Assembly: GCF_012932915.1 (NCBI RefSeq)
Contig: NZ_VCQU01000004.1
Location: 496,001 to 560,000 of the forward strand
DNA: 64,000 nt
Direction of reading: 5' to 3'
From: Antrihabitans stalactiti
GTDB taxonomy: Bacteria; Actinomycetota; Actinomycetes; Mycobacteriales; Mycobacteriaceae
Part shown: positions 8,180-26,383 of the stretch, in pieces
Layout of the letters: each line of letters starts with the position of its first letter
How positions within the stretch are numbered: position 1 is the first letter of the stretch
Translations under genes and position numbers: made by a program
Notes under the pieces: generated by a model
The model's input: only the letters and a program-made list of their open reading frames with translations
What the model was told of the DNA's origin: nothing
The model's database searches: none

Positions 8180-8185
8180 CGCAGC

Positions 8186-9709: not shown

Positions 9710-9778
9710 GGTCTGATGCCTCTCTCCAGACGTGCGGGGCCGGGACTGGGCGTTCCGACCGAATGACGCTCGCGACGG

Positions 9779-11263
9779 TCAGTCGCCCTTGAACCAGCCC
9801 GCCGGCTTCGGCGAGGTGTTGTGCCAAATATGTTTCATCTCTTGATATTCCGCGAGTCCAGTCGGACCGAGCTCGCGCCCGTTACCCGACTTCTTGAACC
9901 CGCCCCACTCTGCCGCAGCCGTGTAGTAGCCGAAGTCGTTCAGCCAGACCGTGCCGTGCCGCAAAGCCCGAACGACGCGCTCACCGCGCGCCGCATCGGA
10001 CGTCCGAACACCGGCGGCCAGCCCGTATTCGGTGTCGTTGCCGAGCGTGATCGCCTCGGCCTCCGTGCTGAACCGTTCGACCGTGAGGATCGGTCCGAAC
10101 GTTTCTTCCCGCACGATTCGCATCGTCCGGTCACAGCGATCGAAGATTGTCGGCGGGAAGTAGCTCCCGTTGGCGAACGCGGGATCGGTCGGCCGTTCGC
10201 CTCCGACGATCAGCTTCGCGCCCTCCGAAATTCCGAGCGCCACATAGGCTTCGACCTTCTCGCGGTGCTGCTCGGACACCAGCGGACCGGTCTCGCTCGC
10301 GGGATCTAGTCCGTTGCCGAACTTGATCTTCGCGGCACGCTTCGCGAGTTCGGCGACGAAATCGTCGGCAATCGATTCTTCGACGATCAGCCTGGTTCCC
10401 GACGAGCACACCTGCCCCGAGTGCAGGAACACCCCGGTGACGACCTGGTCGACCGAACTCTCCCACTCGGCATCGGCGAACACGATGTGCGGGTTCTTGC
10501 CGCCGAGTTCCACAGCGCATTTCGTGACGTGTTGCGCAGCAACACTGGCGATTCGACGACCGGTCGCCAGCCCGCCGGTAAAGGAGATCAGGTCGACGTC
10601 GGGGGTGTCGGTCAAGGCGTCACCCAGGACCGCGCCGCTGCCCTGCACCAGGTTCAGCACACCTGGCGGCACTCCCGCTTCTTCGGCCAGCCGGACGAAC
10701 GCAATGGTGCTCAAGGGCGTGACTTCGCTCGGCTTCGCGACCATGGTGCAGCCGGCTGCCAGCGCGGGCGCGATTTTCCAGGAGATCTGCAGCAGCGGGT
10801 AATTCCACGGCGCAATCAGCACGCACACGCCGATCGGCTCGCGGACGACTCTGCTGATGACCGTCGGATCGCCGACATCGACGAGTCGGTCGGATTCGAC
10901 GGCGACGAGCCGCGCGTAGTAGCGAAATACCGAGGTGACGTCGTCGATGTCGATTCGACTCTCCACCAACGTCTTACCGGTGTCCTCGGTTTCGATCCGG
11001 GCGAGCGCTTCTTTGTCTCTTTCGAGCAGATCGGCGATGCGGTCCAGGATGGCGGCGCGGTCGGCGACCGGGGTGGCCGGCCAGCTTCCTTCGTCGAAGG
11101 TGGCGCGTGCCGCGGCAACGGCACGAGCTGCGTCGTCGGGGGTCGCCTCGTCGACGACCGCAACGACACTGCCGTCGGCCGGGTTGATCAGTTTTCGAGT
11201 GCCGCCGTCGGACGAATGCACCCACTCGCCTGCAATGTAGAGATCCGGGATGTCACCGCTCAC
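9779..11263 (-). CDS. NAD(P)-dependent aldehyde dehydrogenase, betaine-aldehyde type
   Basis: Aldehyde dehydrogenase of 494 residues expected to convert betaine aldehyde to glycine betaine. Conserved residues are Asn154 in PWNYP, the general base Glu252 in ELGGKNP and the nucleophile Cys286 in SGQVCSSG. The GTG start at 11263 sits in a GTGA overlap with the stop of the Rieske gene, implying coupled translation. Specificity is inferred from the operon; the sequence alone supports only the superfamily and the catalytic residues. Confidence 0.88.
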   Translation of the reverse strand: MSGDIPDLYIAGEWVHSSDGGTRKLINPADGSVVAVVDEATPDDAARAVAAARATFDEGSWPATPVADRAAILDRIADLLERDKEALARIETEDTGKTLVESRIDIDDVTSVFRYYARLVAVESDRLVDVGDPTVISRVVREPIGVCVLIAPWNYPLLQISWKIAPALAAGCTMVAKPSEVTPLSTIAFVRLAEEAGVPPGVLNLVQGSGAVLGDALTDTPDVDLISFTGGLATGRRIASVAAQHVTKCAVELGGKNPHIVFADAEWESSVDQVVTGVFLHSGQVCSSGTRLIVEESIADDFVAELAKRAAKIKFGNGLDPASETGPLVSEQHREKVEAYVALGISEGAKLIVGGERPTDPAFANGSYFPPTIFDRCDRTMRIVREETFGPILTVERFSTEAEAITLGNDTEYGLAAGVRTSDAARGERVVRALRHGTVWLNDFGYYTAAAEWGGFKKSGNGRELGPTGLAEYQEMKHIWHNTSPKPAGWFKGD

Positions 11264-12450
11264 GCTCTATCGCCGCCTTCGGTTGCCGCATGACCCAGTT
11301 TTGCGAGTAACCACTCGTGGAACTCGCCTATGTGATGCTCAGCCGGGACGAGCACCCCGCCATGACGGTAGGCGCGTGAAGCCATTGCTGGTTGAGTTCG
11401 CTCACATGCCTCGAAATCTTGCTCGTTCACCCGGTGAAACAGCTCGACCGAGCGTGATACATCTCGACCTTCCGCGACCACATCGGCGGTGTAGAGCCAG
11501 TCGCATTCGACGACAGTGCGGTCGTGGGCCATCGGATACATGCGGTGAAAAATGATGTGGTCGGGCACGAGGTTCACGAACACCGTCGGCCGGACGGTGA
11601 TTGCGTAGTACTTGCGGTCCTGGTCGACGGCGATCCCCGGCAGCGCCTCGAACCCAGCCGAGCCGTCGACAGTGAACCCGGCGATGTCGCTGCCGAATTC
11701 GGCGCCGTGGCCGACGAAGAACTGCGCCGCAAGCCCCTCCTTGAATTCAGGGAGTACCTCGGTGAGTTCGGGATGGATCGTGGCGCAGTGGTAGCACTCC
11801 ATGAAGTTCTCGATGATGAGCTTCCAGTTCGCCGCGACGTCGTAGACGACCCGGCGTCCGACTTCGAGCCGGTCGATGCCGTAGTTGTCGATGGCTGCGG
11901 GATCACCGAGTCGTTCGGTGACCGCGCCCATGACCTCAGCTTCGAACGACGGCGGCTCGTCTGCCAGGCAGACCCACGCGTAGCCGAGCCATTCTCGCAA
12001 CGCCACCGGGACGAGCCCGAACTCGACGCGGTCGATCGCGTTGCCCTCGAGATCCTTGAGCGACGAGAGGTTCGGTGCCGCAACCAGCTTTCCGTCGAGC
12101 CCGTAGGTCCAGGCGTGGTACGGGCACCGCAGATTCCGTCGCACCTGCCCGGATTCCTCGGTGCACAGCATCGCGCCGCGGTGGCGGCAGACGTTGAGGA
12201 ACGCACGCAGCTGGTCATCGCGTCCGCGGACGATGAGCACGCTTTCGCTGCCGACTTGAATCTTCCTGAACGCTCCCGGGTGCTCCAGGTCGCTGGAGCG
12301 GACCCCGCAGAACCACATCGCTTCGAAGATGCGGCTCTGCTCGGCTCGGAAAATGTCTTCGCTGCAATAGTATTCGCCGCGCAACGTTGGGATCAGCGAC
12401 GGCGCTCGGGAGGTCGTGCCGACAGACTCAGGCAGGTCGGTTGTCGTCAT
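11260..12450 (-). CDS. Rieske non-haem iron oxygenase alpha subunit, glycine-betaine monooxygenase type
   Basis: Ring-hydroxylating-oxygenase-fold enzyme of 396 residues, probably demethylating glycine betaine to dimethylglycine and formaldehyde, like GbcA. The Rieske [2Fe-2S] ligands are Cys88, His90, Cys109 and His112 (CRH and CPYH). The mononuclear iron site shows NWKLIIENFMECYHCATIH with His221 and His226. The SRPBCC-type catalytic domain fills the rest. No reductase gene is fused or immediately adjacent; a Rieske ferredoxin and a ferredoxin reductase lie at 16028-17559. It starts 7 bp after the dimethylglycine-dehydrogenase-like gene. Related quaternary-amine demethylases (carnitine, stachydrine) are the main alternatives. 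Confidence 0.85.
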   Translation of the reverse strand: MTTTDLPESVGTTSRAPSLIPTLRGEYYCSEDIFRAEQSRIFEAMWFCGVRSSDLEHPGAFRKIQVGSESVLIVRGRDDQLRAFLNVCRHRGAMLCTEESGQVRRNLRCPYHAWTYGLDGKLVAAPNLSSLKDLEGNAIDRVEFGLVPVALREWLGYAWVCLADEPPSFEAEVMGAVTERLGDPAAIDNYGIDRLEVGRRVVYDVAANWKLIIENFMECYHCATIHPELTEVLPEFKEGLAAQFFVGHGAEFGSDIAGFTVDGSAGFEALPGIAVDQDRKYYAITVRPTVFVNLVPDHIIFHRMYPMAHDRTVVECDWLYTADVVAEGRDVSRSVELFHRVNEQDFEACERTQPAMASRAYRHGGVLVPAEHHIGEFHEWLLAKLGHAATEGGDRA

Positions 12451-12456
12451 CGCCCG

Positions 12457-14910
12457 CTACCTCCGAATCCGAGCCATCTCGGGATCGACTACCGGTTCGG
12501 TGTGCACCACCGCCCGGTGACTCGTCCCAAGGAAGTCGACGAACACGTCATCGCCGGGTTCGACCGCGGCGGGCAGCCACGCATACGCGATGGTCGCGCC
12601 GATCGTCGGCGAATAGCCCGCGCTGGTTACGTACCCCGCCGTCCCACCGTGGACCGATACCGGCTCCTTGCCGAGCACAACGGTCGCGGGGTCGTCGAAC
12701 ACGATGCTGCGCAACACCTTCTCGGGTGCGCCGGCGCTCTCCAGCGCAGCCTTGCCGATGAAGTCACCCTTCGCCATCCGCACCGCGAAGTCGATGCCTG
12801 CGGCAGCCGGAGTGTGCTCGGTGGTCATGTCCGTACCCCAGGACCGGTAGCCCTTTTCGATGCGCAGACTGTTGAACGCGATCCGCCCTGCCGCGACGAC
12901 GTTGTGTTCCTGACCGGCAGCCCAGAGCAGATCCCACAGCGCAGCGCCGTATTCCGCGGTCGTGTAGATCTCCCAGCCGAGCTCGCCGACATAGGACACC
13001 CGCATCATCGTCACCGGGATCGGACCGAGGTAGGTCTGCAACGCACGGAAGTACTTGAACTTGTCGTGCGAGATGTCGGCGGCCGTCAGCGGCTGCACGA
13101 CGTCGCGCGCGGCCGGTCCCCACACCCCGATGCAGCAGGTACTGCCCGTGATGTCGCGCAGCGTGACGCTACCGTCGTCGGGGAGCTGCCGGGAGATCCA
13201 ATCGAAGTCCAGCGGACCGTTCGCGCCGACCTGGAACAGGGCCGGTTCCAAACGAGCGACGGTGAGATCGCTTCGAACACCACCGTTTTCGTCGAGCATG
13301 AGGGTGTAGGTGACCGAGCCGACGGACTTGTCCAGATTGTTGGTCGTGAGTCGTTGCAGCAGCGCGAGCGCGCCCGGACCGGCGACTTCGTATCGCGTCA
13401 ACGGCGTCATGTCGAACATCGCGACATGTTCACGGGTCCAGATTGCCTCGGCGATCGCGATGGGCGAATAGAATCTCGCCGACCATCCTTCGCGGTGCGG
13501 GATCTCGACACCCCGATCGACGAGTTGTTGCAGCAGTGGAGCATTCGCCTCGTAGTACGCGGGACGCTCCCAACAGCCACCCTCGAAGAAGAACGCGCCG
13601 AGTTCTTGCTCACGCCGATAGAACGGGCTGGTCCGCAGGCCACGCAGGTCGTTGCGGTACTGGTGCGGATGGATGATGTCGTAGACCTCGACGAACGCTT
13701 GCGAGCTGGTCTTCAAGATGAATTCGTCACTGAGCGCCGGCTTTTCGAAACGGTAGAGATCGCATTCGTGCACGTCGGTGTGCGGCGCGCCTTCGGTGAT
13801 CCATTCCGCCATAGCCTTGGCGACGCCCGCGGAGTGCGTCACCCAGACGGCCTCGGAGACCCAGAAGCCGGACAGGTCTCGGTGCTCGCCCATGATCGAC
13901 ATGCCGTCGGGCGTGAACGAGAAGATGCCGTTGAACGCCTCCTCGATCTTGGAATCGCCCAGAGCAGGAAGCAGTTTCGCGCTCTCCAGCCACGCTGGGG
14001 CAAAGTCCTCGTCGGTGAACGGCAGCATCGAGGGCATCTGCTCGTTCGCCGAGTCGATCAGCAGCGTCGACATGTCGACCGGCATCGGCTTGTGTCCGTA
14101 GTAGCCGATGCCGATGCGGTCGCCGTGCTCGCGGAAGTAGAGATCCTGGTCCTGATGGCGAAGAATCGGCAGCCCCGCTTCCGCGAGTTCGGAATTGCGA
14201 CCGACCAATTCGGCGATCTGGCCGGTCCTCGCGTACTGGTGCGCCATCGGGACCAGCGGGATCGTGAGGCCGACCTGCTTGCCGAGCTGCGCGCCCCAGA
14301 AGCCGGCAGCACACACCACGATGTCGGCATCGATGACGCCGTCGGTTGTGCGCACACCTGTCACGCGGGAGCCGCTGTGCAGAATTTCCACGACGTCCTG
14401 GTGCGGCCGAAACTCCGCTCCCCTGCTGATCGCCCGCTTCGCTTGCGCCTCTGCCGCCCGCAACGCTTTGGCCAAACCGTCTGTGAGCGTGTGGAAGCCA
14501 CCGAGAATCCGGTCGGCGTCGAGCAGCGGGTGCAAGCGTGCGCATTCCCCAGGGTCGAGCAGGCGGCCCTCGATTCCCCACGACCGTGCCCAGCCTGCTT
14601 TGCGATGCAAGTCGGTCCAGCGCTCGGGCGTGGTGGCCACCTCCAGCCCACCGACCGGATTGAAACACCAACCGTCGGGGTGCTCCAGCGCGAGGAATTT
14701 CTCGGCCGTATAGCGAGCAAATTCGCTCATGGTTTTCGACGGATTCGTCTGGAAGACGAGGCCCGGCGCATGCGAGGTGGAGCCGCCGGTCGCGAACAAC
14801 GGTCCGCGATCGACCACGACGACGTCGGTCCAACCGCGTTGCGTGATCTCGTCGGCGAGGGATGTGCCGACTATTCCGGCTCCGATGATGACGACTTTCG
14901 GCTGAGCCAC
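12457..14910 (-). CDS. FAD-dependent dimethylglycine/sarcosine dehydrogenase-type enzyme with GcvT domain
   Basis: Flavoprotein of 817 residues. The N-terminal DAO fold has GAGIVG (10-15). A TGGSTSHAPG segment (41-50) follows, whose His47 aligns with the His that carries covalent FAD in animal dimethylglycine and sarcosine dehydrogenases. The C-terminal half is a GcvT-like folate-binding domain that captures the released one-carbon unit as methylene-THF. Expected reaction: dimethylglycine to sarcosine. The start is GTG 14910, chosen because GGAGG lies 5 bp upstream; an upstream ATG would place the operator repeats inside the gene. First gene of the six-gene operon running to 4783. Confidence 0.88.
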   Translation of the reverse strand: MAQPKVVIIGAGIVGTSLADEITQRGWTDVVVVDRGPLFATGGSTSHAPGLVFQTNPSKTMSEFARYTAEKFLALEHPDGWCFNPVGGLEVATTPERWTDLHRKAGWARSWGIEGRLLDPGECARLHPLLDADRILGGFHTLTDGLAKALRAAEAQAKRAISRGAEFRPHQDVVEILHSGSRVTGVRTTDGVIDADIVVCAAGFWGAQLGKQVGLTIPLVPMAHQYARTGQIAELVGRNSELAEAGLPILRHQDQDLYFREHGDRIGIGYYGHKPMPVDMSTLLIDSANEQMPSMLPFTDEDFAPAWLESAKLLPALGDSKIEEAFNGIFSFTPDGMSIMGEHRDLSGFWVSEAVWVTHSAGVAKAMAEWITEGAPHTDVHECDLYRFEKPALSDEFILKTSSQAFVEVYDIIHPHQYRNDLRGLRTSPFYRREQELGAFFFEGGCWERPAYYEANAPLLQQLVDRGVEIPHREGWSARFYSPIAIAEAIWTREHVAMFDMTPLTRYEVAGPGALALLQRLTTNNLDKSVGSVTYTLMLDENGGVRSDLTVARLEPALFQVGANGPLDFDWISRQLPDDGSVTLRDITGSTCCIGVWGPAARDVVQPLTAADISHDKFKYFRALQTYLGPIPVTMMRVSYVGELGWEIYTTAEYGAALWDLLWAAGQEHNVVAAGRIAFNSLRIEKGYRSWGTDMTTEHTPAAAGIDFAVRMAKGDFIGKAALESAGAPEKVLRSIVFDDPATVVLGKEPVSVHGGTAGYVTSAGYSPTIGATIAYAWLPAAVEPGDDVFVDFLGTSHRAVVHTEPVVDPEMARIRR

Positions 14911-14924
14911 ATGAGCCTCCGCTT

Positions 14925-14960
14925 GTTGCGCATTACGCAACTTAATGTGCATTACGCAAC
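14925..14960 (-). promoter_or_regulatory. Candidate operator: repeated GTTGCG(T)AAT elements upstream of the betaine operon
   Basis: The inverted repeat GTTGCG-CATTA-CGCAAC lies at 14925-14941. The 12-bp string GCATTACGCAAC occurs at 14930-14941 and again at 14949-14960, a 19-bp period, between the operon's start codon and a minus-strand TTGACA at 14991-14986. A similar GTTGCG array precedes the ferredoxin gene. The position suggests binding by the neighbouring IclR-family protein. The repeats are visible; the regulator assignment is inference. Confidence 0.6.
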
Positions 14961-15059
14961 AAAGCGTGATCCTCGAAAAGCCCCTTGTCAACTACAAAAA
15001 TGGACAACTTTGCCGGCGGTTTCGCCGCCGTTACCGACCGATGACGGGCAGGTGAGCGG

Positions 15060-15878
15060 TCAGCGCCGCTTTGTTCGCGGCAGGTAGCCCAAACGCGCAC
15101 TGATCTCGCTTGCAACGCCGGTTGCGTGCGCGGCGAGGGCGTCGAAACGCTCTTCGGGCATTCGATACGCCGGTCCGGAAATAGTCAGCGCCGCAACAAT
15201 TTTGGTGCTGTTGTCACGCACCGGCGCGCCGACGGCATGCAAGCCGGTCTCCAGCTCTTCGACCGTGTACGCCCAACCCCGTTCGCGGACGAGGGCCAGT
15301 TCACGCTCGAGTACCGGGTAACTGACGATCGTCTTGTCGGTGAACCGTTCGAGCGGGGAGCCGAGCCGTTCGCGCAGCTGCGCAGAAGTCAGTTCGCTGA
15401 TCAGCATCTTGCCGCTCGAAGTCGCATGCGCAGGGCTCGCCTGCCCGACCCAGGTGCGTAAAGCGACCTCCGCTGAACCGGCCGCCTCGACGATATTGAT
15501 CGCGCGGTCACCTTCGAGAATCGCGAGGTTCACCGTCTCGCCGACCTCGTGGGCGAGCGCATCGCAGCGCGCTTGTGCCGCCTTGGCCAAATCACGTCCG
15601 GCGACCGTAGCGCCGGCCAACCGCACGACCGTGAAGCCCAGGCGATACTTGCCGCGATCGCTGAGCTGCTCGACGAATCCACGCGCCTCGAGCACCGCGA
15701 CCAGACGCGACACCGTCGACTTGTGCACGCCGAGTTCTTCGGCGATTTCGGTGATTCCCGCGGAACCTTGCGCACCGAGGATCTCGAGGACCATCAGCGC
15801 GCGGTCGACCGACTGCACGGCCGCACCGGATCGCCGGTCGCCATCCAGACCGGCGTCGACGGCCGCGGGATCGCTCAT
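15060..15878 (-). CDS. IclR-family transcriptional regulator
   Basis: Regulator of 272 residues: an N-terminal winged helix (about 22-80, with GITEIAEELGVHKSTVSRLVAVLEARG as helix-turn-helix) and a C-terminal IclR effector domain (about 95-260, with ATSSGKMLISELT). It lies between the betaine operon (transcribed the same way, downstream of this gene) and the divergent ferredoxin operon, whose upstream regions share GTTGCG repeats. Effector is likely a pathway intermediate such as glycine betaine or dimethylglycine. Activator or repressor cannot be told from sequence. Confidence 0.9.
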   Translation of the reverse strand: MSDPAAVDAGLDGDRRSGAAVQSVDRALMVLEILGAQGSAGITEIAEELGVHKSTVSRLVAVLEARGFVEQLSDRGKYRLGFTVVRLAGATVAGRDLAKAAQARCDALAHEVGETVNLAILEGDRAINIVEAAGSAEVALRTWVGQASPAHATSSGKMLISELTSAQLRERLGSPLERFTDKTIVSYPVLERELALVRERGWAYTVEELETGLHAVGAPVRDNSTKIVAALTISGPAYRMPEERFDALAAHATGVASEISARLGYLPRTKRR

Positions 15879-15950
15879 GCCTGCAGGTTATCCCCGAGGC
15901 CACACGTGTCCGATTCCGCCCTTGACGGCCAGTGTCGGAACCGGCATTCT

Positions 15951-15985
15951 GTTGCGTATAGAGCGACTGTTGCAATGGGAGCAAC
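15951..15985. promoter_or_regulatory. Candidate IclR operator in the iclR-ferredoxin intergenic region
   Basis: GTTGCGTAT (15951) and GTTGCAATG (15969) are spaced 18 bp apart. The second half forms an inverted repeat, GTTGC-AATGGGA-GCAAC (15969-15985). A plus-strand TTGACG at 15922-15927 lies 23 bp before the first element, close to the 25 bp between TTGACA and the first element in front of the betaine operon. This shared arrangement suggests the same regulator. Confidence 0.55.
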
Positions 15986-16027
15986 AAACTCCGCTCGAAA
16001 GCCCGCTGCTTCAAATAAGGAACTTCG

Positions 16028-16369
16028 ATGACCGGTACCGCCGCTCCCGTCACAGACTCGACCGTCTTCGTCTGCTCGACCGCCGATCTTCCGGTTGGCG
16101 AGGCGACAACCATCACCCACCCAGGCTTGCCGACCATTGCGGTGTTCCACACCGACGAGGGCGTATTCGCCATCGACGACACCTGCACGCACCAAGACGC
16201 CTCGCTTGCCGACGGCTGGGCGGAGGGCTGCACCGTGGAGTGCCCGCTGCACGAGTCCTGCTTCGACCTGCGGACGGGAGCAGTCTCGGGCCCGCCTGCG
16301 AAGGTCCCAGTCCGCACCCACCGCGTCACCGTCGTCGACGGTGCAATCTACGTCGCAGTCGAGCCATAG
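16028..16369 (+). CDS. Rieske-type [2Fe-2S] ferredoxin
   Basis: A 113-residue soluble Rieske ferredoxin of the NirD/BphF type. Cluster ligands are Cys53 and His55 (CTH) and Cys72 and His75 (CPLH). An AAGGA Shine-Dalgarno sits 7 bp before the ATG. It is followed after 2 bp by a ferredoxin reductase, forming a classic two-protein electron chain from NAD(P)H. The partner oxygenase is most likely the Rieske enzyme at 11260-12450, which has no reductase of its own nearby; that pairing is inferred. Confidence 0.9.
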   Translation: MTGTAAPVTDSTVFVCSTADLPVGEATTITHPGLPTIAVFHTDEGVFAIDDTCTHQDASLADGWAEGCTVECPLHESCFDLRTGAVSGPPAKVPVRTHRVTVVDGAIYVAVEP

Positions 16370-16371
16370 CC

Positions 16372-17559
16372 ATGACGCCGCGCTCCGTGGCCATCGTCGG
16401 CGCATCGCTCGCCGGGCTGTCCGCGGTCCGCGCACTGCGATCGGAGGGCTATACCGGCACGATCACCGTCATCGGTGACGAGCCGCACATGCCCTACGAC
16501 CGGCCACCGTTGTCGAAGGAATTCCTGTCCGGCGACGATTCCAACGTCGCGCTCCTGGACGAGGCCGCCGGCGAAACCGACGCCCTCGGCGCGACCTGGC
16601 TGCTCGGTCTGCGTGCAACAGGAATTTCGTCCGTCGGGATCGGCCACGAAGTGCAGACCGACGACGGCACGTCGGTCCGCGCCGATGCTGTGATCATCGC
16701 GACCGGAGCCCGCGCCCGAACCCTGCCCGGTGCCGACGCGCTCGATGGCGTGCACACGCTGCGCACCTTCGACGATGCGCGCGCACTGCGTAAGTCATTG
16801 GCCTCGGCGCGCAGGCTCGTCGTCATCGGAGCCGGTTTCATCGGCGCGGAAGTGGCATCGTCCGCCGCCGCCATCGGTCTGGAGGTGACGGTCGTAGAGG
16901 TGTCGCCCGAGCCGCTCGCGGGCGTGCTGGGTGCGCACGTCGGTTCGCTGTGCGCGGCCCGCCATCGCGCCAACGGCGTCGGACTGCTGACCGGCGTCAC
17001 GGTCGAGAAGCTGCTCGGGACAACCGCAGTGACCGGTGTCGAGTTGGGCAACGGTCTCGTGTTGCGCGCCGACGCTGTCGTCATCGGCATCGGCGCCATT
17101 CCGAACGTCGAGTGGGCGGCCGAGTCCGGACTCGAGATAGCCAACGGCTTCGTGACAGACGCTCTGTGCCGCACGACGATCGACGGAATCTACGCGATCG
17201 GCGACTGCGCCCGATCCTTCGACGAGGAACTCGGCGCACACCACCGCAGCGAACATTGGACTAACGCCACCACCCAGGCCAAGACGGCTGCACGGACGAT
17301 CATGGGAGCGTCGCATCCCCCGCAGGCTGCGCCGTACTTCTGGTCGAACCAGTACGACAAACGGCTGCAATTCGCGGGCCGTAGGCGGCGGACCGACGAG
17401 GTCAAGTTCGTCGACGGTGATGCCGACACTGCGTCTTTCACTGTGGTGTACGAACGTGACGGCGAGGTCGTCGCCGTCTTCGCGATGGACAATCCTCGCC
17501 TCTTCACCCGCTACCGCAAGAACCTGGAACGAGGTCGGCGCGCTACTGTCCAGCGATGA
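16372..17559 (+). CDS. NAD(P)H:ferredoxin reductase (FAD-dependent)
   Basis: Flavoprotein reductase of 395 residues of the BphA4/putidaredoxin-reductase family. It shows an N-terminal FAD motif (VAIVGASLAGLSA), the family's MPYDRPPLSKEFL signature (about 43-55), a second Rossmann motif VVIGAGFIGAEVA for NAD(P)H (about 147) and the FAD-contacting IYAIGDCA near the C-terminus. It passes electrons to the ferredoxin encoded 2 bp upstream. The reading frame is open for more than a kilobase upstream, but the start is set at ATG 16372 where similarity begins, just after the ferredoxin stop. Confidence 0.92.
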   Translation: MTPRSVAIVGASLAGLSAVRALRSEGYTGTITVIGDEPHMPYDRPPLSKEFLSGDDSNVALLDEAAGETDALGATWLLGLRATGISSVGIGHEVQTDDGTSVRADAVIIATGARARTLPGADALDGVHTLRTFDDARALRKSLASARRLVVIGAGFIGAEVASSAAAIGLEVTVVEVSPEPLAGVLGAHVGSLCAARHRANGVGLLTGVTVEKLLGTTAVTGVELGNGLVLRADAVVIGIGAIPNVEWAAESGLEIANGFVTDALCRTTIDGIYAIGDCARSFDEELGAHHRSEHWTNATTQAKTAARTIMGASHPPQAAPYFWSNQYDKRLQFAGRRRRTDEVKFVDGDADTASFTVVYERDGEVVAVFAMDNPRLFTRYRKNLERGRRATVQR

Positions 17560-18110
17560 TTCGCACAGCATGGCATTTCGACGAATCCGACGGGGAACTG
17601 CATATTCACACCGGAGTCGCGGGCCGGGCAGCCAAGATGGGTCACCGGCTGGTCATTGCAATGACCGCCTGGCGGGGCACGGTGTCGTTCGTCGACGGCG
17701 AACCGGCTGCAGCAGACCTCACCGTCGACGTTGGTTCGTTTCAGGTGCTGCGGGGCGACGGTGGCTTGAAGCCCCTGTCCGGAGCCGAGCGGGCCATCAT
17801 CAAGACGAATGCACTCAAGGCACTGCACGTCACGCGGTTCCCCCAGATCCATTTCCGCACACACCATGTCCACAACGTCGGCGAGGGCGACTATCGCCTC
17901 ACCGGACTGCTGGAGATTCACGGGAAGAGCCATGAGCGTGTAGTCGATGTGCGCCTCGATGATGTGGGCGACGCCTGGCGACTGTCCGGCCAGGCCGAAG
18001 TTCGCCAATCGGATTTCGGCGTCAAGCCGTTCTCGATGCTTGCAGGAACTCTCAAAGTTGTCGACGCCGTGACCGTGTCGGTCTCCGTCACTCGGGCCAA
18101 GGACGACTGA
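17556..18110 (+). CDS. YceI-family protein
   Basis: A 184-residue YceI-like protein with the lipocalin-like pattern of alternating strands (HFRTHHVHNVG, YRLTGLLEIHGKSHERVV). Family members bind long isoprenoid or other hydrophobic ligands; no signal peptide is visible, so it is probably cytosolic. The start codon overlaps the reductase stop as ATGA, so the two are translationally coupled. Its role with a ferredoxin chain is unknown. Confidence 0.8.
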   Translation: MIRTAWHFDESDGELHIHTGVAGRAAKMGHRLVIAMTAWRGTVSFVDGEPAAADLTVDVGSFQVLRGDGGLKPLSGAERAIIKTNALKALHVTRFPQIHFRTHHVHNVGEGDYRLTGLLEIHGKSHERVVDVRLDDVGDAWRLSGQAEVRQSDFGVKPFSMLAGTLKVVDAVTVSVSVTRAKDD

Positions 18111-18122
18111 GGCTGGGTTCGG

Positions 18123-18440
18123 TCAGCCGCGTGACGGCAGCACCGCAAACAACCACCCAGCGCCGGTCGGATCTGCTGCCGCCAAACCGGGGTCGGAACT
18201 CACCGCGTCGTTGACGATGGTGACTCGACCGGTCACCGGTGAGTACAGGCCGGTCGACTCACCTGCGGACACGACCACACCACATTGTGCTCCCGCCTCG
18301 ACGACGGACCCGACCCGCGGAAGATCGACAGCCGAGACCGCTCCGATCTGCTGCGCAACGACGGGCATCATGCTGATTCGCAAGGGCACGTCGAAATAGT
18401 TGGTGCTGGTCGCGACAGTCAGCCAGTTCTGCGTAGCCAT
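18123..18440 (-). CDS. Glycine-cleavage H-protein homologue lacking the lipoyl lysine
   Basis: A 105-residue protein that follows the H-protein fold along its length (IGAVSAVDLPRVGSVV, LYSPVTGRV, GLAAADPTGAGWL). The canonical lipoylation stretch ESVKAxSDLY reads VSAGESTGLY here, so the modified Lys is replaced by Gly, and there is no lysine anywhere in the protein. It therefore cannot carry lipoate in the normal way. It is the last gene of the sarcosine oxidase operon, downstream of purU, and ends 12 bp from the convergent YceI gene. The start at ATG 18440 has AGAAAGG upstream. Function unknown; it may dock on GcvT-like domains without catalysis. Confidence 0.8.
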   Translation of the reverse strand: MATQNWLTVATSTNYFDVPLRISMMPVVAQQIGAVSAVDLPRVGSVVEAGAQCGVVVSAGESTGLYSPVTGRVTIVNDAVSSDPGLAAADPTGAGWLFAVLPSRG

Positions 18441-18466
18441 CGGAAGATGCCTTTCTGATTGGGTTT

Positions 18467-19315
18467 TCAGCGAAATACGACGGTGCTCGTGTCGTTGAGC
18501 AGAACGCGGCGTTGGCAGTGCCAACGGACCGCCCGCGAGAGTGCGAGGGCTTCGGCGTCGCTGCCGACCGTTGCCAGCCGACGCGGATCGTAGGTGTGGT
18601 CGATCCGAATCACTTCTTGCTCGATGATCGGACCCTCGTCGAGATCGGGCGTGACGTAATGCGCTGTGGCGCCGACGTATTTGACGCCGCGATCGAACGC
18701 CTGGTGATACGGCTTCGCGCCCTTGAACCCCGGGAGGAAGGAGTGATGGATGTTGATTGCGCGTCCGCGCAAAGCCGTGCACATCTCGTCCGACAGCACC
18801 TGCATGTAGCGCGCGAGGACAACCAAGTCCGCCTGGTATTCATCGACCAGATCCAGCAAGCGGGCTTCGGCCTCTCGCTTGGTCGCTGGCGTGACCGGCA
18901 CATGAATATAGGGCAGGCCGACAGCCTCGGCCATCGGTCGCAAATCCTCGTGATTGGAGACGACGGCGACGATCTCGGCACCGAGTGTGCCCGCGCGCCA
19001 ACGGAAGATGAGGTCGTTGAGACAGTGCCCCAGCCGCGAGACCATCACGAGCACGCGTTGCGGCCGGTCGTCGGTGAGCTCGAACGTCGTGCCGAACTCG
19101 TCTGCCACTTCCTCGAACTCGGCACACAGTTGCGCAACGTCGGCTTCCTGCGCGGACACGAAAGCGGTTCGCATGAACAGCGAGCCACGGAGGACGTCGT
19201 CGAATTGCTGATGCTCGATGATGTCGCACCCGTGCCGGAAGAGGAACGAGCTGATCGAATGCACGATTCCCGGGCGTTCTTTGCAGGTCAACGTGAGCGT
19301 GAAGTTGGTTGTCAT
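18467..19315 (-). CDS. purU: Formyltetrahydrofolate deformylase
   Basis: Hydrolyses 10-formyl-THF to formate and THF. The 282 residues comprise an N-terminal ACT domain (about 6-85, TCKERPGIVHSISSFL) and a formyltransferase-like catalytic domain with Asn188 and His190 in NIHHSFLP and Asp226 in DLDEGP, matching the Asn/His/Asp triad of the family. In this operon it can recycle THF loaded with methyl groups from betaine, dimethylglycine and sarcosine. It follows sdaA by 10 bp. Confidence 0.95.
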   Translation of the reverse strand: MTTNFTLTLTCKERPGIVHSISSFLFRHGCDIIEHQQFDDVLRGSLFMRTAFVSAQEADVAQLCAEFEEVADEFGTTFELTDDRPQRVLVMVSRLGHCLNDLIFRWRAGTLGAEIVAVVSNHEDLRPMAEAVGLPYIHVPVTPATKREAEARLLDLVDEYQADLVVLARYMQVLSDEMCTALRGRAINIHHSFLPGFKGAKPYHQAFDRGVKYVGATAHYVTPDLDEGPIIEQEVIRIDHTYDPRRLATVGSDAEALALSRAVRWHCQRRVLLNDTSTVVFR

Positions 19316-19325
19316 CGGTCGCCTT

Positions 19326-20696
19326 TCAACATTCGACGATGTTCAGCGCGAGGCCGCCGCGGGCCGTCTCCTTGTATTTGTCTTTCATGTCCGCACCGGT
19401 CTCGCGCATCGTCTTGATCGCCTTGTCGAGCGTGACGTGGTGATGCCCGTCGCCCCGAACTGCCATGCGGGCGGCGGTGATTGCTTTGATCGAGCCAACG
19501 GCATTGCGTTCGATGCAGGGAATCTGCACGAGCCCGCCGACGGGGTCGCAGGTCAGCCCGAGGTTGTGTTCGATGCCGATCTCGGCAGCGTTCTCGATCT
19601 GTTCCGGAGTGCCGCCAAGTACCGCAGCCAAGCCGGCCGCCGCCATCGAGCAGGCCGATCCGACCTCACCCTGGCACCCGACCTCGGCACCGGAGATCGA
19701 CGCATTCTCTTTGAACAGCAACCCGATTGCGCCGGCGGTGAGCAAGAAATCGACGATTCCGTCGTCTGACGAGTTCAGAAATCGTCGGTAGTAGTGCAAG
19801 ACCGCGGGAACGATGCCAGCAGCACCGTTGGTCGGCGCCGTGACCACCCGTCCGCCCGCGGCATTCTCCTCGTTGACGGCCAACGCGTACATGGTCACCC
19901 ACTCCATAGCGCGCAACGCGTCGTGGTGATCGTCGGCCGCCTCCAGCGTGGCCAGCAGGTTGGCCGCTCGTCTGCGGACTCGCAGACCGCCGGGCAGCAC
20001 CCCGCCGGTCTGCGAGCCGCGAGTGACGCATTCCTGCATCACCGACCAGATGCGCAGGAGGCCGGACCGAATCTCGTCCTCAGTGCGCCACGACAATTCG
20101 TTGGCCAGCATCAATTGGCCGATACTCAGTTCGGTTTCGTGGGTCAACGCGAGCAGTTGATCGCCGGAGTGGAAGGGATATCGCACCGGCGTAGGGTCTT
20201 CGACGATCGCAGCGTTGCCTGTGTCGTCCTCGTCGAGCACGAAACCGCCACCGACGGAGTAGTACTCGCGACTGCAGACCACCCGTCCACCAGCATTGCG
20301 CGCCTCGAACGTCATGCCGTTGGGATGGACGGCCAACTTGCGGCGACGGTGCAGCACGATGTCGTCGTCGATGTCGAATCCGATCAGGCGCGCACCGCCG
20401 AGTCGAAGCCGTCGTTGTGCACGCACAGTTCCGACGCGGGTGTGCGTGGTGGTCGGATCGACCAAGTCCGGCTGCTCACCTTCGAGGCCCAAGACGACCG
20501 CACCGACACTGCCGTGCCCGTGCCCGGTCGCGCCCAGCGATCCGAACAGTTCGACGTGCACGTGCGCCGTCGCGTCCAGCAGCCCCTTGTCGGCAAGCCT
20601 GGTCACGAAGCGATAAGCCGCGCGCATCGGGCCGACGGTGTGCGAACTCGACGGTCCGATACCGATCTTGAACAGATCGAACACGCTGATCGTCAT
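19326..20696 (-). CDS. sdaA: L-serine dehydratase, single-chain iron-sulfur type
   Basis: Deaminates L-serine to pyruvate and ammonia. The 456 residues match the fused alpha-beta type: N-terminal [10 protein letters not shown] (14-23) and C-terminal cysteine-containing stretches ([15 protein letters not shown] and LTCDPVGG...IPC) that hold the oxygen-sensitive [4Fe-4S] cluster. The start at ATG 20696 overlaps the soxG stop by 4 bp. In this operon it completes sarcosine to glycine to serine to pyruvate, given a serine hydroxymethyltransferase encoded elsewhere. Confidence 0.95.
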
Positions 20697-21277
20697 GGGG
20701 TGCCGATGTATTCGGTCGCTGCATCGAGAAGCCAGGCGGCAAGGTAGTGCGCGAACGACGAGCGAACGAGGATCTGGAAGGTAGTGCCGGTGTCGTCGCC
20801 TGCCGCCAACACGACGTTCGCCTGGCCGAGCATGGTCTGCACTGCCGAGTTCGCCGCAAACACCCGTGGGTGCAGATCGATCGAGCAGCCCTGGGCGAGG
20901 ACCTCCCTGGCGTGAGCACCGCTGAGCCACAGCGTCGTCCGTTGGGCGGACACATCGGCAGCAGTGCCACCGAGCTCGGAAACCGCTTCGCGCAGTTCGC
21001 GTTCGAAGGTCTCGGGGGCGTCGGTCGTGCTGGTGACGAGCCATTCGTCCGGGCCCATCCAGATTGCCGTCACCGTGCCCGCCACTGCATACGTCGACGC
21101 CACGGTCGGCAGGTCGATCCCCAATTGCGTGGTGAGCGCGGCCGCAGCGGCGGCGTCGGCCCGCAGGTCGATCATCGTGAGGAACGGCTCTTCGACGATG
21201 CGCACAGTGTCGGGCAGTTCCGCAAAACGCTGCGCGAATGCGTCGAGTGGGCTTGTGCGTCCCAATGTTTCAGCCAT
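20693..21277 (-). CDS. soxG: Sarcosine oxidase gamma subunit
   Basis: Gamma subunit (194 residues) of heterotetrameric sarcosine oxidase. It shows the GcvT-like fold of the family, with WMGPDEWLV (about 73-81) and a C-terminal [16 protein letters not shown]. The start overlaps the soxA end by 8 bp and the stop overlaps sdaA by 4 bp. It stabilises the complex and has no cofactor motif of its own. Confidence 0.9.
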
Positions 21278-24092
21278 CGCGACGTGCTCCTTCGGGATCG
21301 ACAAGCACGGACCCGGTGACCTCGACCGGCACCAGCGACGCACCGATCGGCACGTGCAGGGTTTCCCCGATCCGGGATCGTCCGGCCTTGACCAGTGCAA
21401 GCGCAAACGTCCGGCCGAGTTCGGCGCTGCGGTAGCTCGACGTGATGTACCCGAGCATCGGCACCGGTGGCGGAGGCAAGGTTTCGTCGGCGCGGTACTC
21501 GATGATCTGGGCGCCTTCCGGCAGGACGAAATCCCGATCCACTGGTAGCAGCCCGACGAGCTGCCGCCGCAACGGATTCTGGTTCTCGATGCGTGCAAAG
21601 GACCGCTTGCCGACGAAGTCGAGCTTCTTCTTCGAGACGGCCCAGCCCATTCCGAGGTCGTGCGGCGTGACCGTGCCGTCGGTGTCCTGACCGACGATCG
21701 GGTAGCCCTTCTCGGCACGCAGGACGTGCATCGTTTCGGTGCCGTACGGCGTGATCGCGTACGGCCGTCCGGCCTCGATCAGCCTCTCCCACAACGCAGG
21801 TGCGTACCAGGAGTTGACGTTCACCTCATAGGCAAGCTCGCCGGAGAAGCTGATCCGTGCGACTCGTACAGCCACTTCGCCGATGCAGGTGTCGCGCCAC
21901 GTCATGAACGGAAACGCGTCGTTGGCGACGTCGAGGTCGGGGAAAACAGCCGCGACAACGTCACGTGACCGCGGACCCACGACGGGGAAGGTCGACCAAT
22001 GCTCGGTGACCGACGTCAGCCGGACCCGCAGGTCTGGCCACTCCGTCTGCAGCCACTCCTCCATCCACTCCAAAATCTTGGCGGCCCCACCTGTAGTGGT
22101 GAAAACGATGAAGCGGTCCTGCGCGAGCCGCATGACCGTGCCGTCGTCGATCACCATTCCGTCGACGCCGCACATCACGCCGTATCGAACGCTGCCGACC
22201 TTCAGGTTGCTCATCAGGTTCGTGTAGATGCGGTCGAGGAGCTCGCCCGCGTCGGCTCCAGACACATCGATCTTGCCGAGGGTCGAACCATCGAGGATGC
22301 CGACCGACGCTCTGACAGCGCCACATTCGCGCAACACGGCGGCATCCATATCCTCGCCCGGCTGCGGATAGTACCGTGGCCGCTTCCACTGGCCGACGTC
22401 CTCGAAGACGGCACCGTGCTCGACGTGCCAGTTGTGCAGCGCGGTCGTACGTTCGGGATCGAAGAGCGCGCCCCGGCTACGGCCTGCCAACGCGGCGAAC
22501 GCAACCGGTGTGTACGGCGGACGAAACGTCGTGGTGCCCAGGGTCTCGATTCCGACACCGAGAAGTTCGGCGGTGATTCCCGACGAGATCACTCCGGATG
22601 TCTTGCCTTGATCGTGCGCAGTGCCGATCGTGGTGTAGCGCTTGATGTGCTCCATCGAACGCATGCCAGCCCCGACTGCACGACGCAGGTCGGCGACCGT
22701 CGCATCGCGTTGCAGGTCGACGAACGCGTCCGCTTCGGAGCCATACGCCACGCGCCACAACACCACTGGATCCGACTCCGCGAGGCTTTCGTCGGAAGCT
22801 GTTGGCAATGAGAGGTTTCCGGCATCGTGCCCGAGATCGATTGCTGCGCGCACCCCGTCGCGCAGACATCCTGCAAGATCGAGAACGCCGTTGGCAGACC
22901 CGGCGACCTCGATGCCACCGAGCCGCTCGCCTGGCACGAACGCGCCCAGTTGGTCGTCGTAGCAAAGCTTGCCGCGCACCTGACTGAACAGATGCACCGC
23001 CGGATTCCAGCCCCCGCTGACGAGGAGCAAGTCGCAGGCAATCGACTCGTCGCCGACCAGTGCGTGGGTGATGCGATCGGTCCCGAGTGTTCCGGTCACT
23101 GCCGCATTCGTGCGGACCGCAATGCCGCGTCGAGCACACTCCTGGTGCAGCGCGACAGGTCCGTCGGCGCGGGCGTCGATGATCGCTTCGATGGTCACGC
23201 CCGCGGTCGCGAGATCCAGGGCCGCCGAGTAGGCGCTGTCGTTGGTCGTGAACACGACAGCTTTCTCGCCGGCCTTCACGCCGTACCGATGCAGGAAGGT
23301 CCGGGCACCGTGCGCGAGCATGATTCCCGGGCGGTCGTTGTCGGCGAACACCACCGGGCGTTCGTGGGCGCCTGCGGCGATGACGATCTGGCTCGCTCGG
23401 ACTCGCCACACCCGTTGCCGGGAGACGTTTTTGGGAGCAGCGAAACCGAGGTGGTCGGTCCGGCGTTCCAGAGCGAGCACGAAACCGTCGTCGTAGTGGC
23501 CGAAGGCGGTGGTGCGTTGCAGGTGCCGGACCTCCGGGTAGGAAGCCAACTCGGCCACCGCGCCGGCCACCCATTCCATGGCGGGCGCGTCGTCGAGGGT
23601 GTCCGCGCTCCCGAGCAGCGAGCCGCCTGCCTCGGACTGCTCGTCGATCAGCACCACCCGAGCACCGGTGCGCGCTGCGGTGAGCGCAGCGGTCAGCCCT
23701 GCGGGGCCAGCGCCGACGACAAGGAGATCGGTGTGCAGATGCTGGGCGTCGTAGCGTGATTCGTCAGGAATATCAGCCAACCGGCCTTGCCCTGGAATGC
23801 CATGAGCGATCAGACCGTCGTACAACTCGACCGTGCTCGCGGACAGCATGGGCTCGGGAAACGGCTGCTCGATCTGGACGAGGCCACCCGTATCCTCGGC
23901 CCAGGCTGCGGTGATACCCCGCGGCCGGCCGAGCTTGATACTCGTCGTGATCGCGTGGATGCCATTGGCGAGCAGCGCCGAGGCCAAGGTATCGCCGCGT
24001 TGCCCGGTCAGGGTGCGACCGCCGAAAGTGAACTCGTACGAGGTGTTTCGGTCGATGCGGCCGCCGTCTGCGGTGCGAAATGGCGCGGTCAT
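21270..24092 (-). CDS. soxA: Sarcosine oxidase alpha subunit
   Basis: Large subunit of 940 residues. It begins with a ferredoxin-like domain (about 10-90) without cluster cysteines, followed by a pyridine-nucleotide/FAD fold with GAGPAG (127-132), and ends in a GcvT-like domain (about 580-940) that binds THF and traps the methyl carbon as 5,10-methylene-THF. In the known enzyme the alpha subunit binds NAD and part of the flavin site. The start is ATG 24092, in a 4-bp overlap with soxD. Length and domain order match characterised Corynebacterium and Pseudomonas enzymes. Confidence 0.95.
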   Translation of the reverse strand: MTAPFRTADGGRIDRNTSYEFTFGGRTLTGQRGDTLASALLANGIHAITTSIKLGRPRGITAAWAEDTGGLVQIEQPFPEPMLSASTVELYDGLIAHGIPGQGRLADIPDESRYDAQHLHTDLLVVGAGPAGLTAALTAARTGARVVLIDEQSEAGGSLLGSADTLDDAPAMEWVAGAVAELASYPEVRHLQRTTAFGHYDDGFVLALERRTDHLGFAAPKNVSRQRVWRVRASQIVIAAGAHERPVVFADNDRPGIMLAHGARTFLHRYGVKAGEKAVVFTTNDSAYSAALDLATAGVTIEAIIDARADGPVALHQECARRGIAVRTNAAVTGTLGTDRITHALVGDESIACDLLLVSGGWNPAVHLFSQVRGKLCYDDQLGAFVPGERLGGIEVAGSANGVLDLAGCLRDGVRAAIDLGHDAGNLSLPTASDESLAESDPVVLWRVAYGSEADAFVDLQRDATVADLRRAVGAGMRSMEHIKRYTTIGTAHDQGKTSGVISSGITAELLGVGIETLGTTTFRPPYTPVAFAALAGRSRGALFDPERTTALHNWHVEHGAVFEDVGQWKRPRYYPQPGEDMDAAVLRECGAVRASVGILDGSTLGKIDVSGADAGELLDRIYTNLMSNLKVGSVRYGVMCGVDGMVIDDGTVMRLAQDRFIVFTTTGGAAKILEWMEEWLQTEWPDLRVRLTSVTEHWSTFPVVGPRSRDVVAAVFPDLDVANDAFPFMTWRDTCIGEVAVRVARISFSGELAYEVNVNSWYAPALWERLIEAGRPYAITPYGTETMHVLRAEKGYPIVGQDTDGTVTPHDLGMGWAVSKKKLDFVGKRSFARIENQNPLRRQLVGLLPVDRDFVLPEGAQIIEYRADETLPPPPVPMLGYITSSYRSAELGRTFALALVKAGRSRIGETLHVPIGASLVPVEVTGSVLVDPEGARRDG

Positions 24093-24367
24093 GGCAGTGC
24101 CGGCTTCTGCTCGTCGGGACGGTAGACACCGTGGAAGCGATAGGTGGCGGTATCGCGGAGTGCGTTGAACCATCGGCGACACCCGGCCGAGTGGTACCAG
24201 CGTTCGGCGAATGTGCCCTTGGGATTGCTGCGGAAGAACACGTAGTGCGCCCATTCCTCGTCCGACAGGTCGGCCGGATTCTCCGGGTAGGCGACATGCG
24301 CCTGGCCGCCGTAGTGAAACTCGGTTTCCTCGCGTGATCCGCACCAAGGACACTCGATCAACTGCAT
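24089..24367 (-). CDS. soxD: Sarcosine oxidase delta subunit
   Basis: Small zinc-binding delta subunit of 92 residues. Cysteines in IECPWCG (6 and 9) and later HSAGC are the likely zinc ligands, and FFRSNPKGTFAERWYHSAGC is diagnostic. The start is set at ATG 24367 because AGGAGG lies exactly 6 bp upstream; ATG 24373 would abut the Shine-Dalgarno. It follows soxB by 10 bp. Confidence 0.92.
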   Translation of the reverse strand: MQLIECPWCGSREETEFHYGGQAHVAYPENPADLSDEEWAHYVFFRSNPKGTFAERWYHSAGCRRWFNALRDTATYRFHGVYRPDEQKPALP

Positions 24368-24377
24368 TTGCATCCTC

Positions 24378-25607
24378 CTAATGCGCGACGGCGGCAGCGC
24401 CGTGCTCGTCCACGAGCGCGCCTGTGACGAAGCGGTCGAGGCTGAACGGTGCGACGTACGGATGCGGCTCGTCGTAGGCCAGGGTGTGCGCCAGACACCA
24501 GCCGACGCCCGGAGTCGCCTTGAAACCGCCTGTCCCCCACCCGCAATTGAGATAGACGTTGTCGTATGGAGTGCGTCCGACGATCGGTGAGGCATCGGGG
24601 CACACATCGACGATTCCGCCCCAGCTGCGCAGCAAGTGCGCCCGGGCGAAAATTGGGAAAAGCTCGACAGCGGCAGCCATCTGACGCTCGATGATGTGAA
24701 ATGCCCCGCGCTGACCGAACCCGTTGTAGGAGTCGATGCCCGCACCCATCACCAATTCACCCTTGTGCGCCTGCGACACGTAAACGTGCACGGCGTTGGA
24801 CATCACGACGGTCGGATGCACCGGTTCCAGCAACTCCGAGACCAGCGCCTGCAATGGATGGCTCTGCACGGGAACGGCAATCCCCAGCATGTCGGTCAGC
24901 ACGGACGTGTGGCCGGCCGCACACAGCGCGATCTTCCCCGCACCGATGGTGCCGAGATTCGTGCGCACTCCCGTCACCCGGTTCCCGTCGGTCTCGAACC
25001 CGACGACCTCGCAGCCCTGGATGATGTCCACCCCGGCCGCATCGGCTCGCCGAGCGAAACCCCAAGCGACATAGTCGTGTTTGGCGATTCCTGCGCGCGG
25101 CTGATAGGTCGCACCCAGTACCGGGTAGCGGATGTTGTCGGAGATGTTGACGATCGGGCACAGCTCCTTGACGCCCTCGGGTCCGACCCATTCGGCGTCG
25201 ATTCCGTTGAGGCGGTTGGCTTCTACTCTGCGCACGCTGTCGCGAACGTCCTGCAGGCTGTGGGCGAGGTTCAGCACTCCCCGCTGGCTGAACAGGATCG
25301 GGTAGCCGAGGTCGTCTTCCAGCCCCTCCCACAACTTCAGCGAATGCTCGTAGATCGCCGAACTCTCGTCCCAGAGATAGTTGGAGCGGATGACCGTCGT
25401 GTTGCGGGCCATGTTGCCGCCGGCGAGCCAACCCTTCTCCAGCACAGCAACATTCGTGATGCCGTGGTTCTGCGCCAGATAGTGCGCCGTTGCAAGGCCG
25501 TGCCCACCGCCGCCGATGATCACGACGTCGTACGACGTGCACGGCTCCGGATTGCGCCACAGGAAATCTGGATGGTCGGGCAGGTCCGCGCCGGGGGCCA
25601 AAGTCAT
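24378..25607 (-). CDS. soxB: Sarcosine oxidase beta subunit
   Basis: Catalytic flavoprotein subunit of 409 residues, first gene of the soxBDAG-sdaA-purU operon. The DAO-family FAD motif is [12 protein letters not shown] (28-39). His177 in AKHDYV corresponds to the residue that carries covalent FMN in the characterised enzyme. With soxA and THF it oxidises sarcosine to glycine, hydrogen peroxide and methylene-THF. A weak GGGAACC precedes ATG 25607. The promoter region shares a palindrome with the divergent GntR gene. Confidence 0.95.
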
Positions 25608-25653: not shown

Positions 25654-25720
25654 ATCAGGTTAGAGTAGAGTCACCGCTAGCCGAGGTCAACAGGTGCGGC
25701 AAGATTCGAGGAGGCACATC

Positions 25721-26383
25721 GTGAGCGTGGAGCCGCTGTTCGTCGAGCGCACTGTGTCGGAGGCCGACCGAGCGTACGAGATCATCCGGGAACGCCTGGT
25801 CATGCTCGATATCCGACCCAACGAGCCGGTCAACGACGAAGGCCTGGCGCGCGCACTCGGCTTCGGCAGGACGCCCGTGCGCGAGGCCCTCAAGCGCCTG
25901 GAACGCGACCGACTCATCGTGTCGTTTTCGCGTCGCGGAACCTTCGCAACCACCGTCGACATCACCGACCTGGCACACATCTCGGAAATCCGCACCCAAC
26001 TCGAACCGATCGCCGCAGCCCGCGCCGCCCGGACCGCATCGGCACCTACTCGGCAGCGGCTAGCCGAACTGGCCGACGAGATCACCCAGATCAGCGACGA
26101 TGACGACGACAACCGCGCCCTGCTGAAGACCGACGTGCGCGTGCACCGAGAAATCTATCGAGCGTCGGGTAACCCGTACCTCGAGGATGTGTTGATAACC
26201 CAGGACGCGCACGCCACGCGAATCTGGTGCCTGTTCTTGGACCGCCTCCCGCACGTCGCCGAGCACGTCCGCGAACATGCGCCGCTGTTGCGCGCGATCG
26301 TCGACGGCGACGCAGACCGGGCGGCCGAGCTGACTCTCGCGCACGTGATCGGCTTCGAAAAGTCGATTCGCGAGCTGTTGTAG
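25721..26383 (+). CDS. GntR-family regulator, FCD subfamily
   Basis: A 220-residue regulator with an N-terminal winged helix (about 12-75, ALGFGRTPVREALKRLERDRLI) and an all-helical FCD effector domain whose metal/ligand residues lie in RVHREIYRASGN and later His-containing helices. The start is GTG 25721, preceded by GAGGAGG with 6 bp spacing, in preference to GTG 25694. It is divergent from soxB, so it is the likely regulator of the sarcosine operon. Its stop abuts that of truA. Confidence 0.88.
   Translation: MSVEPLFVERTVSEADRAYEIIRERLVMLDIRPNEPVNDEGLARALGFGRTPVREALKRLERDRLIVSFSRRGTFATTVDITDLAHISEIRTQLEPIAAARAARTASAPTRQRLAELADEITQISDDDDDNRALLKTDVRVHREIYRASGNPYLEDVLITQDAHATRIWCLFLDRLPHVAEHVREHAPLLRAIVDGDADRAAELTLAHVIGFEKSIRELL

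Follow-up and report, generated by a model that had tools for sequence, protein, structure and literature searches.

The sequence analyzed, referred to as the window, is a stretch of 64,000 nucleotides from Antrihabitans stalactiti. The genes soxB, soxD, soxA, soxG, sdaA, and purU lie in this order on one strand and are followed by a gene for a lipoyl-less paralogue of the glycine-cleavage H protein GcvH, hereafter HLP (Table 1). Adjacent genes are separated by no more than 26 bases or have small overlaps, and HLP, which starts 26 bases past purU, is the last gene of this tight soxBDAG-sdaA-purU operon. An earlier note on this DNA had placed the gene in a sarcosine-oxidase operon, and this placement holds. 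Based on the close spacing of the genes, a single transcript from soxB to HLP is likely. Profile matches identified the C-terminus of SoxA as a GcvT-type folate domain, and the soxG product reached 25.1 bits against GCV_T, narrowly below the cut-off of 25.6 bits.

Table 1. Features of the window discussed in the text, with the evidence for each.
Feature	Positions	Strand	Evidence and remarks
Dimethylglycine-dehydrogenase-like (DMGDH-like) protein, DAO and GcvT-type domains	12457..14991	-	Profile matches
HLP, lipoyl-less GcvH paralogue, 105 aa, no Lys	18123..18440	-	Profile matches, translation
Shine-Dalgarno-like AGAAAGG, 9 nt upstream of the HLP ATG	18450..18456	-	Sequence
purU, formyltetrahydrofolate deformylase	18467..19315	-	TIGR00655, 324.3 bits (cut-off 285.95)
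sdaA, L-serine dehydratase	19326..20696	-	SDH_alpha and SDH_beta; start MTISVFDLF picked by eye
soxG, sarcosine oxidase gamma subunit	20693..21277	-	PF04268; start MAETLGRT picked by eye
soxA, sarcosine oxidase alpha subunit	21270..24092	-	TIGR01372, 1193.9 bits (cut-off 1164); start MTAPFRTADGG picked by eye
soxD, sarcosine oxidase delta subunit	24089..24367	-	PF04267; start MQLIECPWCG picked by eye
soxB, sarcosine oxidase beta subunit	24378..25607	-	TIGR01373, 612.5 bits (cut-off 529.45)
GntR/FCD regulator, divergent, adjoining soxB	25694..26383	+	Profile match

The broader region from 6626 to 25607 also includes, according to profile matches, members of the GMC oxidoreductase, permease, aldehyde dehydrogenase, Rieske oxygenase, and Rieske ferredoxin and ferredoxin reductase families. 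Together with the DMGDH-like gene, soxBDAG, sdaA, and purU, this gene set is presumably a complete route from choline or betaine to pyruvate.

The reading frame of HLP is unbroken from the ATG to its end. The protein matched the Pfam family GCV_H (PF01597) with 54.6 bits (cut-off 22.2, E 1.2e-14), and all ten members of set A1 matched this family at an E of 0.01 or better. Its residues 2-103 aligned with the solved GcvH 3tzu (5.2e-17), where the Lys of the ESTK motif is paired with a Gly of HLP in the sequence alignment. The claim of a GcvH homologue with Gly in place of the lipoyl Lys was therefore confirmed. Against the GcvH equivalog TIGR00527, the protein scored 58.1 of the 115.85 bits required, half of the cut-off, and it was also below the cut-off of NF002270 (58.6 vs 117). 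A single-chain AlphaFold model built on a two-row alignment had a pLDDT of 36. Judged from its sequence, HLP is without a lipoylation site and so cannot carry lipoate.

The absence of any Lys among the 105 residues, which the earlier note had stressed, is correct but unremarkable here. The 16 other proteins of the window contain 146 Lys among 6,366 residues (2.3%), a frequency at which 105 residues would include no Lys with a chance of about 0.087, or about once in eleven. SoxG is also free of Lys, and only 10 of the 23 HLPs described below are. Total Lys absence was thus rejected as a significant trait, and the loss of the lipoyl site, rather than a Lys-free composition, is the trait that counts.

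A census of soxD in the family of the window identified matches at E 0.001 in 52 of 401 genomes, 51 of which were above the curated cut-off; the match in G184 was weak and its locus divergent. The census of HLP covered the surroundings of soxD, with the loci of all 52 genomes annotated, including one where the contig stops inside soxA (G347) and three on short contigs (G391, G242, and G021). Of the 52 genomes, 23 have an intact HLP, one (G298) has a frameshifted copy in a broken operon, and none was seen at the soxD loci of the others. The intact HLP adjoins sox genes in 22 of the 23, in agreement with its earlier assignment to the sox operon, and is on a separate short contig in G021. A protein search of the family returned 91 places, of which 64 were read as sequence and the other 27 all belong to genus g3. 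Among the 64, the lipoyl Lys was missing in 23, which are the HLPs, and present in 41; two loci carrying ESPK (L195 and L197) were counted as ordinary GcvH. Eight soxD-positive genomes lacking an HLP, from the genera g1, g6, and g29, were searched in full for GCV_H. No HLP was found in any of them: seven had one match each (G001, G057, G241, G286, G292, G338, and G336), and G278 had two, both ordinary. Additionally, G289 has a second sox locus (L088), where soxB is about 1.6 kb from soxD; HLP is missing there and present at the other locus of this genome.

At the level of the order, soxD was found in 58 of 298 genomes, three of them in the family of the window. The sox loci of 36 of the other 55 genomes were read, and no H-like gene was found at any of these 40 loci, some of which are cut by contig ends and three of which (L159-L161) have divergent sox genes. 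Genes for sdaA, purU, glyA, and folP-like proteins were frequent at the same loci. In a class-wide profile search of 394 genomes, HLP was not separable from GcvH by score, and among the best 30 loci of that search only the one in the window was without ESxK.

Folate synthesis genes were also observed within the sarcosine operons. For example, a dihydropteroate-synthase-like gene (Pterin_bind) is located at L041:9861-10814 on the minus strand, with equivalents in L086, L051, L057, and L082, and it sits between soxG and HLP in the genera g6 and g23. In L082, the dihydropteroate-synthase-like gene occurs with a FolC-like gene (Mur_ligase_C) and without HLP.

Alignment of the 23 HLPs revealed that the Gly of the window protein is not conserved, a point that the earlier note had proposed to check, since Gly occupies the lipoyl column in just two of them; the others have Arg (10), Ala (6), His (2), Thr (2), and Trp (1). 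The constant feature is that the residue is never Lys. No homologue with the normal lipoyl Lys, which had been named as a possible refutation, was found among the 23, and no Lys was present in any of them in alignment columns 66-84 around the site. An ESxK motif with the lipoyl Lys was found in none of the 23 HLPs, whereas each of the 65 ordinary GcvH proteins in the tree described below has it (ESTK in 63, ESPK in one, and ESVK in one). Every HLP has likewise lost the Glu residues of both ESxK and HEW, along with the Asp or Glu four columns past the Lys. The core was retained throughout: all 23 have the W, PxR, LPxV, AGxxC, PxxG, T, N, P, and DPxxxGWLFAxL elements, and 22 columns are invariant among them.

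The alignment columns were assigned putative E. coli GcvH numbers by motif. Three acidic residues of E. coli GcvH, Glu-12, Glu-14, and Asp-68, are described as holding the aminomethyl arm or handing it on (PMC7733448). The residues of the Glu-14 and Asp-68 columns were present in none of the 23 HLPs, and Glu was lost from the Glu-12 column in 17 and kept in six. The Ser-67 column was replaced in all of them, by Val (14), Ile (5), Leu (2), or Thr (2), and the Tyr-70 column was Tyr or Phe in 19. The lipoyl arm and most of its pocket are thus gone and a conserved core is left, and the pocket is not wholly erased, as the Glu-12 and Tyr-70 columns demonstrate.

The hairpin looks rebuilt rather than merely worn down, because the former Asp or Glu column (Asp-68) is Thr in 21 of the 23 HLPs and an inserted Trp is found in 13. 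Such remodeling of the site would be expected if the scaffold had been co-opted as a binding module for a ligand or regulator within one-carbon metabolism, a new function apart from GcvT-type partners. The persistent linkage to sox argues instead for a partner in the sarcosine pathway, and we regard this new function as unlikely.

The substitution rates indicated that HLP is under purifying selection, looser than that on GcvH. The median dN/dS of HLP was 0.236 in genus g6 (21 of 21 pairs usable) and 0.231 in genus g23 (44 of 45 pairs), and the one pair in the genus of the window gave 0.296; none of the three pairs in g24 was usable. Three sets of ordinary GcvH had values of 0.107, 0.091, and 0.116, so that HLP evolves two to three times faster. 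When 14 genes of the window were compared with those of G003, the largest dN/dS was that of HLP (0.285), with SoxG (0.185) second and the ferredoxin reductase (0.184) third.

The faster evolution of HLP would fit a passenger or a slowly decaying duplicate without function, as would its repeated gain or loss in the SoxA tree below and the broken operon of G298 (L074), where frameshifts occur throughout, including HLP. However, the frameshifts of L074 also affect soxA, sdaA, and gntR and may reflect decay or sequencing error. The reading frame of HLP is open in all 23 genomes, and eight of nine aligned relatives are just 37-45% identical to the window protein. These observations, the 22 invariant columns, and a dN/dS far below one in all three measurable groups argue against a passenger, which is thus improbable. 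The same observations answered the suggestion that signs of decay might expose this copy as a pseudogene, and a pseudogene was rejected.

A phylogeny of 88 GcvH and HLP proteins was constructed from 136 columns. Identical sequences and partial matches, among them the broken L074, had been dropped beforehand, as had 32 redundant rows of ordinary GcvH. The 23 HLPs formed one clade (support 88/83; 86% of 200 bootstrap trees), in which long branches meet and the bootstrap is unsettled. This clade was nested in one type of the ordinary GcvH of the family, on a starred branch (96/97). The tree suggests that HLP probably had a single origin by duplication within the family, which is likely rather than certain.

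A SoxA phylogeny was constructed from 87 rows, comprising the window and 86 of 94 fetched loci, with the eight loci without an intact SoxA frame excluded. All 23 SoxA proteins from genomes with HLP, where G021 was counted by genome rather than by linkage, fell within one starred clade of 34 rows. The SoxA tree requires at least six gains or losses of HLP, five of them forced by starred branches. This distribution fits a single recruitment of HLP into the sarcosine-oxidase operon, probably followed by several losses. As HLP is absent from 11 of the 34 operons of this clade, it is not obligatory in sarcosine oxidase, and the enzyme can do without it.

In 22 of the 23 HLP genomes, sdaA is a direct or close neighbor, and HLP might on this basis be a partner of the serine dehydratase. 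However, the SdaA of the window does not share a clade with those of the remaining 21 HLP operons that have sdaA, and G003, which carries HLP and is 99% complete, has no match to SDH_alpha in its genome. HLP hence follows soxBDAG, its constant companion, and not sdaA. SdaA was rejected as the partner of HLP, a reading that is very improbable and largely refuted. The SdaA of the window groups with that of other families of the order, which suggests that the gene was replaced or transferred.

The glycine-cleavage H protein is a carrier that acts through its lipoyl-lysine. HLP cannot act in this way, as the lipoyl Lys is missing, nor is it needed as the H protein of the cell. The source genome encodes a second, ordinary GcvH with the motif ESTKSVSDI (G000:C24:195048-195386; 6.2e-37). 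A scan of genome contigs identified one locus, an ordinary GcvH (L009). A further GCV_H match at 1e-29 or better and GcvP were found in all 33 genomes examined, including all 23 with HLP. One of the 33 is 74% complete (G277), and the ordinary GcvH of G328 and G292 is known from matches rather than at the sequence level. HLP as a replacement H protein for a genome without GcvH was therefore rejected.

The descent of HLP from a genuine GcvH in the tree and the presence of another GcvH and of GcvP in all 23 HLP genomes are compatible with HLP acting as a decoy, which during sarcosine use would displace lipoyl-GcvH from GcvT or GcvP and slow glycine cleavage. Glycine and methylene-tetrahydrofolate would then be spared for conversion to serine by GlyA and to pyruvate by SdaA. 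HLP is also encoded among genes for sarcosine catabolism, a setting in which additional methylene-tetrahydrofolate derived from glycine may be unwanted. The type of ordinary GcvH closest to HLP by phylogeny lies near gcvP in the genomes where both were located. Against a decoy, this type was present in only eight of the 23 HLP genomes, the rest having only the other type, and G003 retains HLP with no SdaA found in its genome. A decoy is about as unlikely, in our judgment, as the new binding function described above. Nothing on inhibition by apo-H was found in the accessible text of PMC9990993.

Relatives of the H protein outside glycine cleavage are represented by TIGR03077 (not_gcvH), NF045810 (GcvH_rel_desulf), and LbpA, and HLP resembles them in this respect. 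The window protein scored far below the cut-offs of the two models (36.1 of 144.05 bits for TIGR03077 and 19.6 of 150 bits for NF045810). LbpA of the Hdr-like sulfur-oxidation system is described as lipoate-binding in the accessible text of its report and keeps the cofactor for which HLP has no site (PMC6067878). With GcvH itself (PF01597; TIGR00527), HLP shares a homologous core with the motifs LPxV, AGxxC, and DPxxxGWLF, but it differs in having lost the lipoyl Lys, the Glu of both ESxK and HEW, and the Asp of the pocket, and in its location in a sox operon. A sarcosine cluster of the order glyA-soxBDAG-sdaA-purU occurs in Arthrobacter and Corynebacterium sp. U-96, which has the same enzymes soxBDAG, sdaA, and purU as the operon of the window but for which the accessible text mentions no H-like gene (PMC3534580). 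A search of the literature, with subscription journals mostly outside its reach, returned no description of an H protein that lacks the lipoyl site and is encoded in a sox operon.

GcvT-type folate domains are common to GcvT, sarcosine oxidase, and dimethylglycine dehydrogenase, and the partner of the H protein is GcvT. The earlier note had considered SoxA and the DMGDH-like protein as possible partners of HLP. The sarcosine oxidase genes, the constant companions of HLP, include soxA with its GcvT-type domain, and the most straightforward interpretation is that HLP docks on a domain of this kind. HLP, having lost the lipoyl site and retained the scaffold of the H protein in the soxBDAG operon, would act as a non-catalytic docking protein. 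Through this scaffold it may bind the GcvT-type folate domain of the tetrameric sarcosine oxidase, either the C-terminal domain of SoxA or SoxG, and once bound it could stabilize or modulate the step in which tetrahydrofolate receives the methylene group. This role of HLP is favored here, albeit tentatively. One point against docking is that the oxidase parts of SoxA may, as we assume, cover the face equivalent to the one by which GcvT binds the H protein. To our knowledge, no other H protein acts purely by docking without a swinging arm. More doubtful is the general proposition that HLP is an arm-free H protein working by docking only, whether it was recruited once to serve sarcosine oxidase as an accessory subunit or gate or is a decoy restraining glycine cleavage during sarcosine use.

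As HLP genes match GCV_H, they could be given the name gcvH by homology, and they should not be counted as components of glycine cleavage. In this family under selection, the core has been kept and the cofactor site discarded, which suggests that the H protein can be useful as a docking scaffold alone. HLP also offers a natural setting in which to study the control of GcvT-type folate domains.
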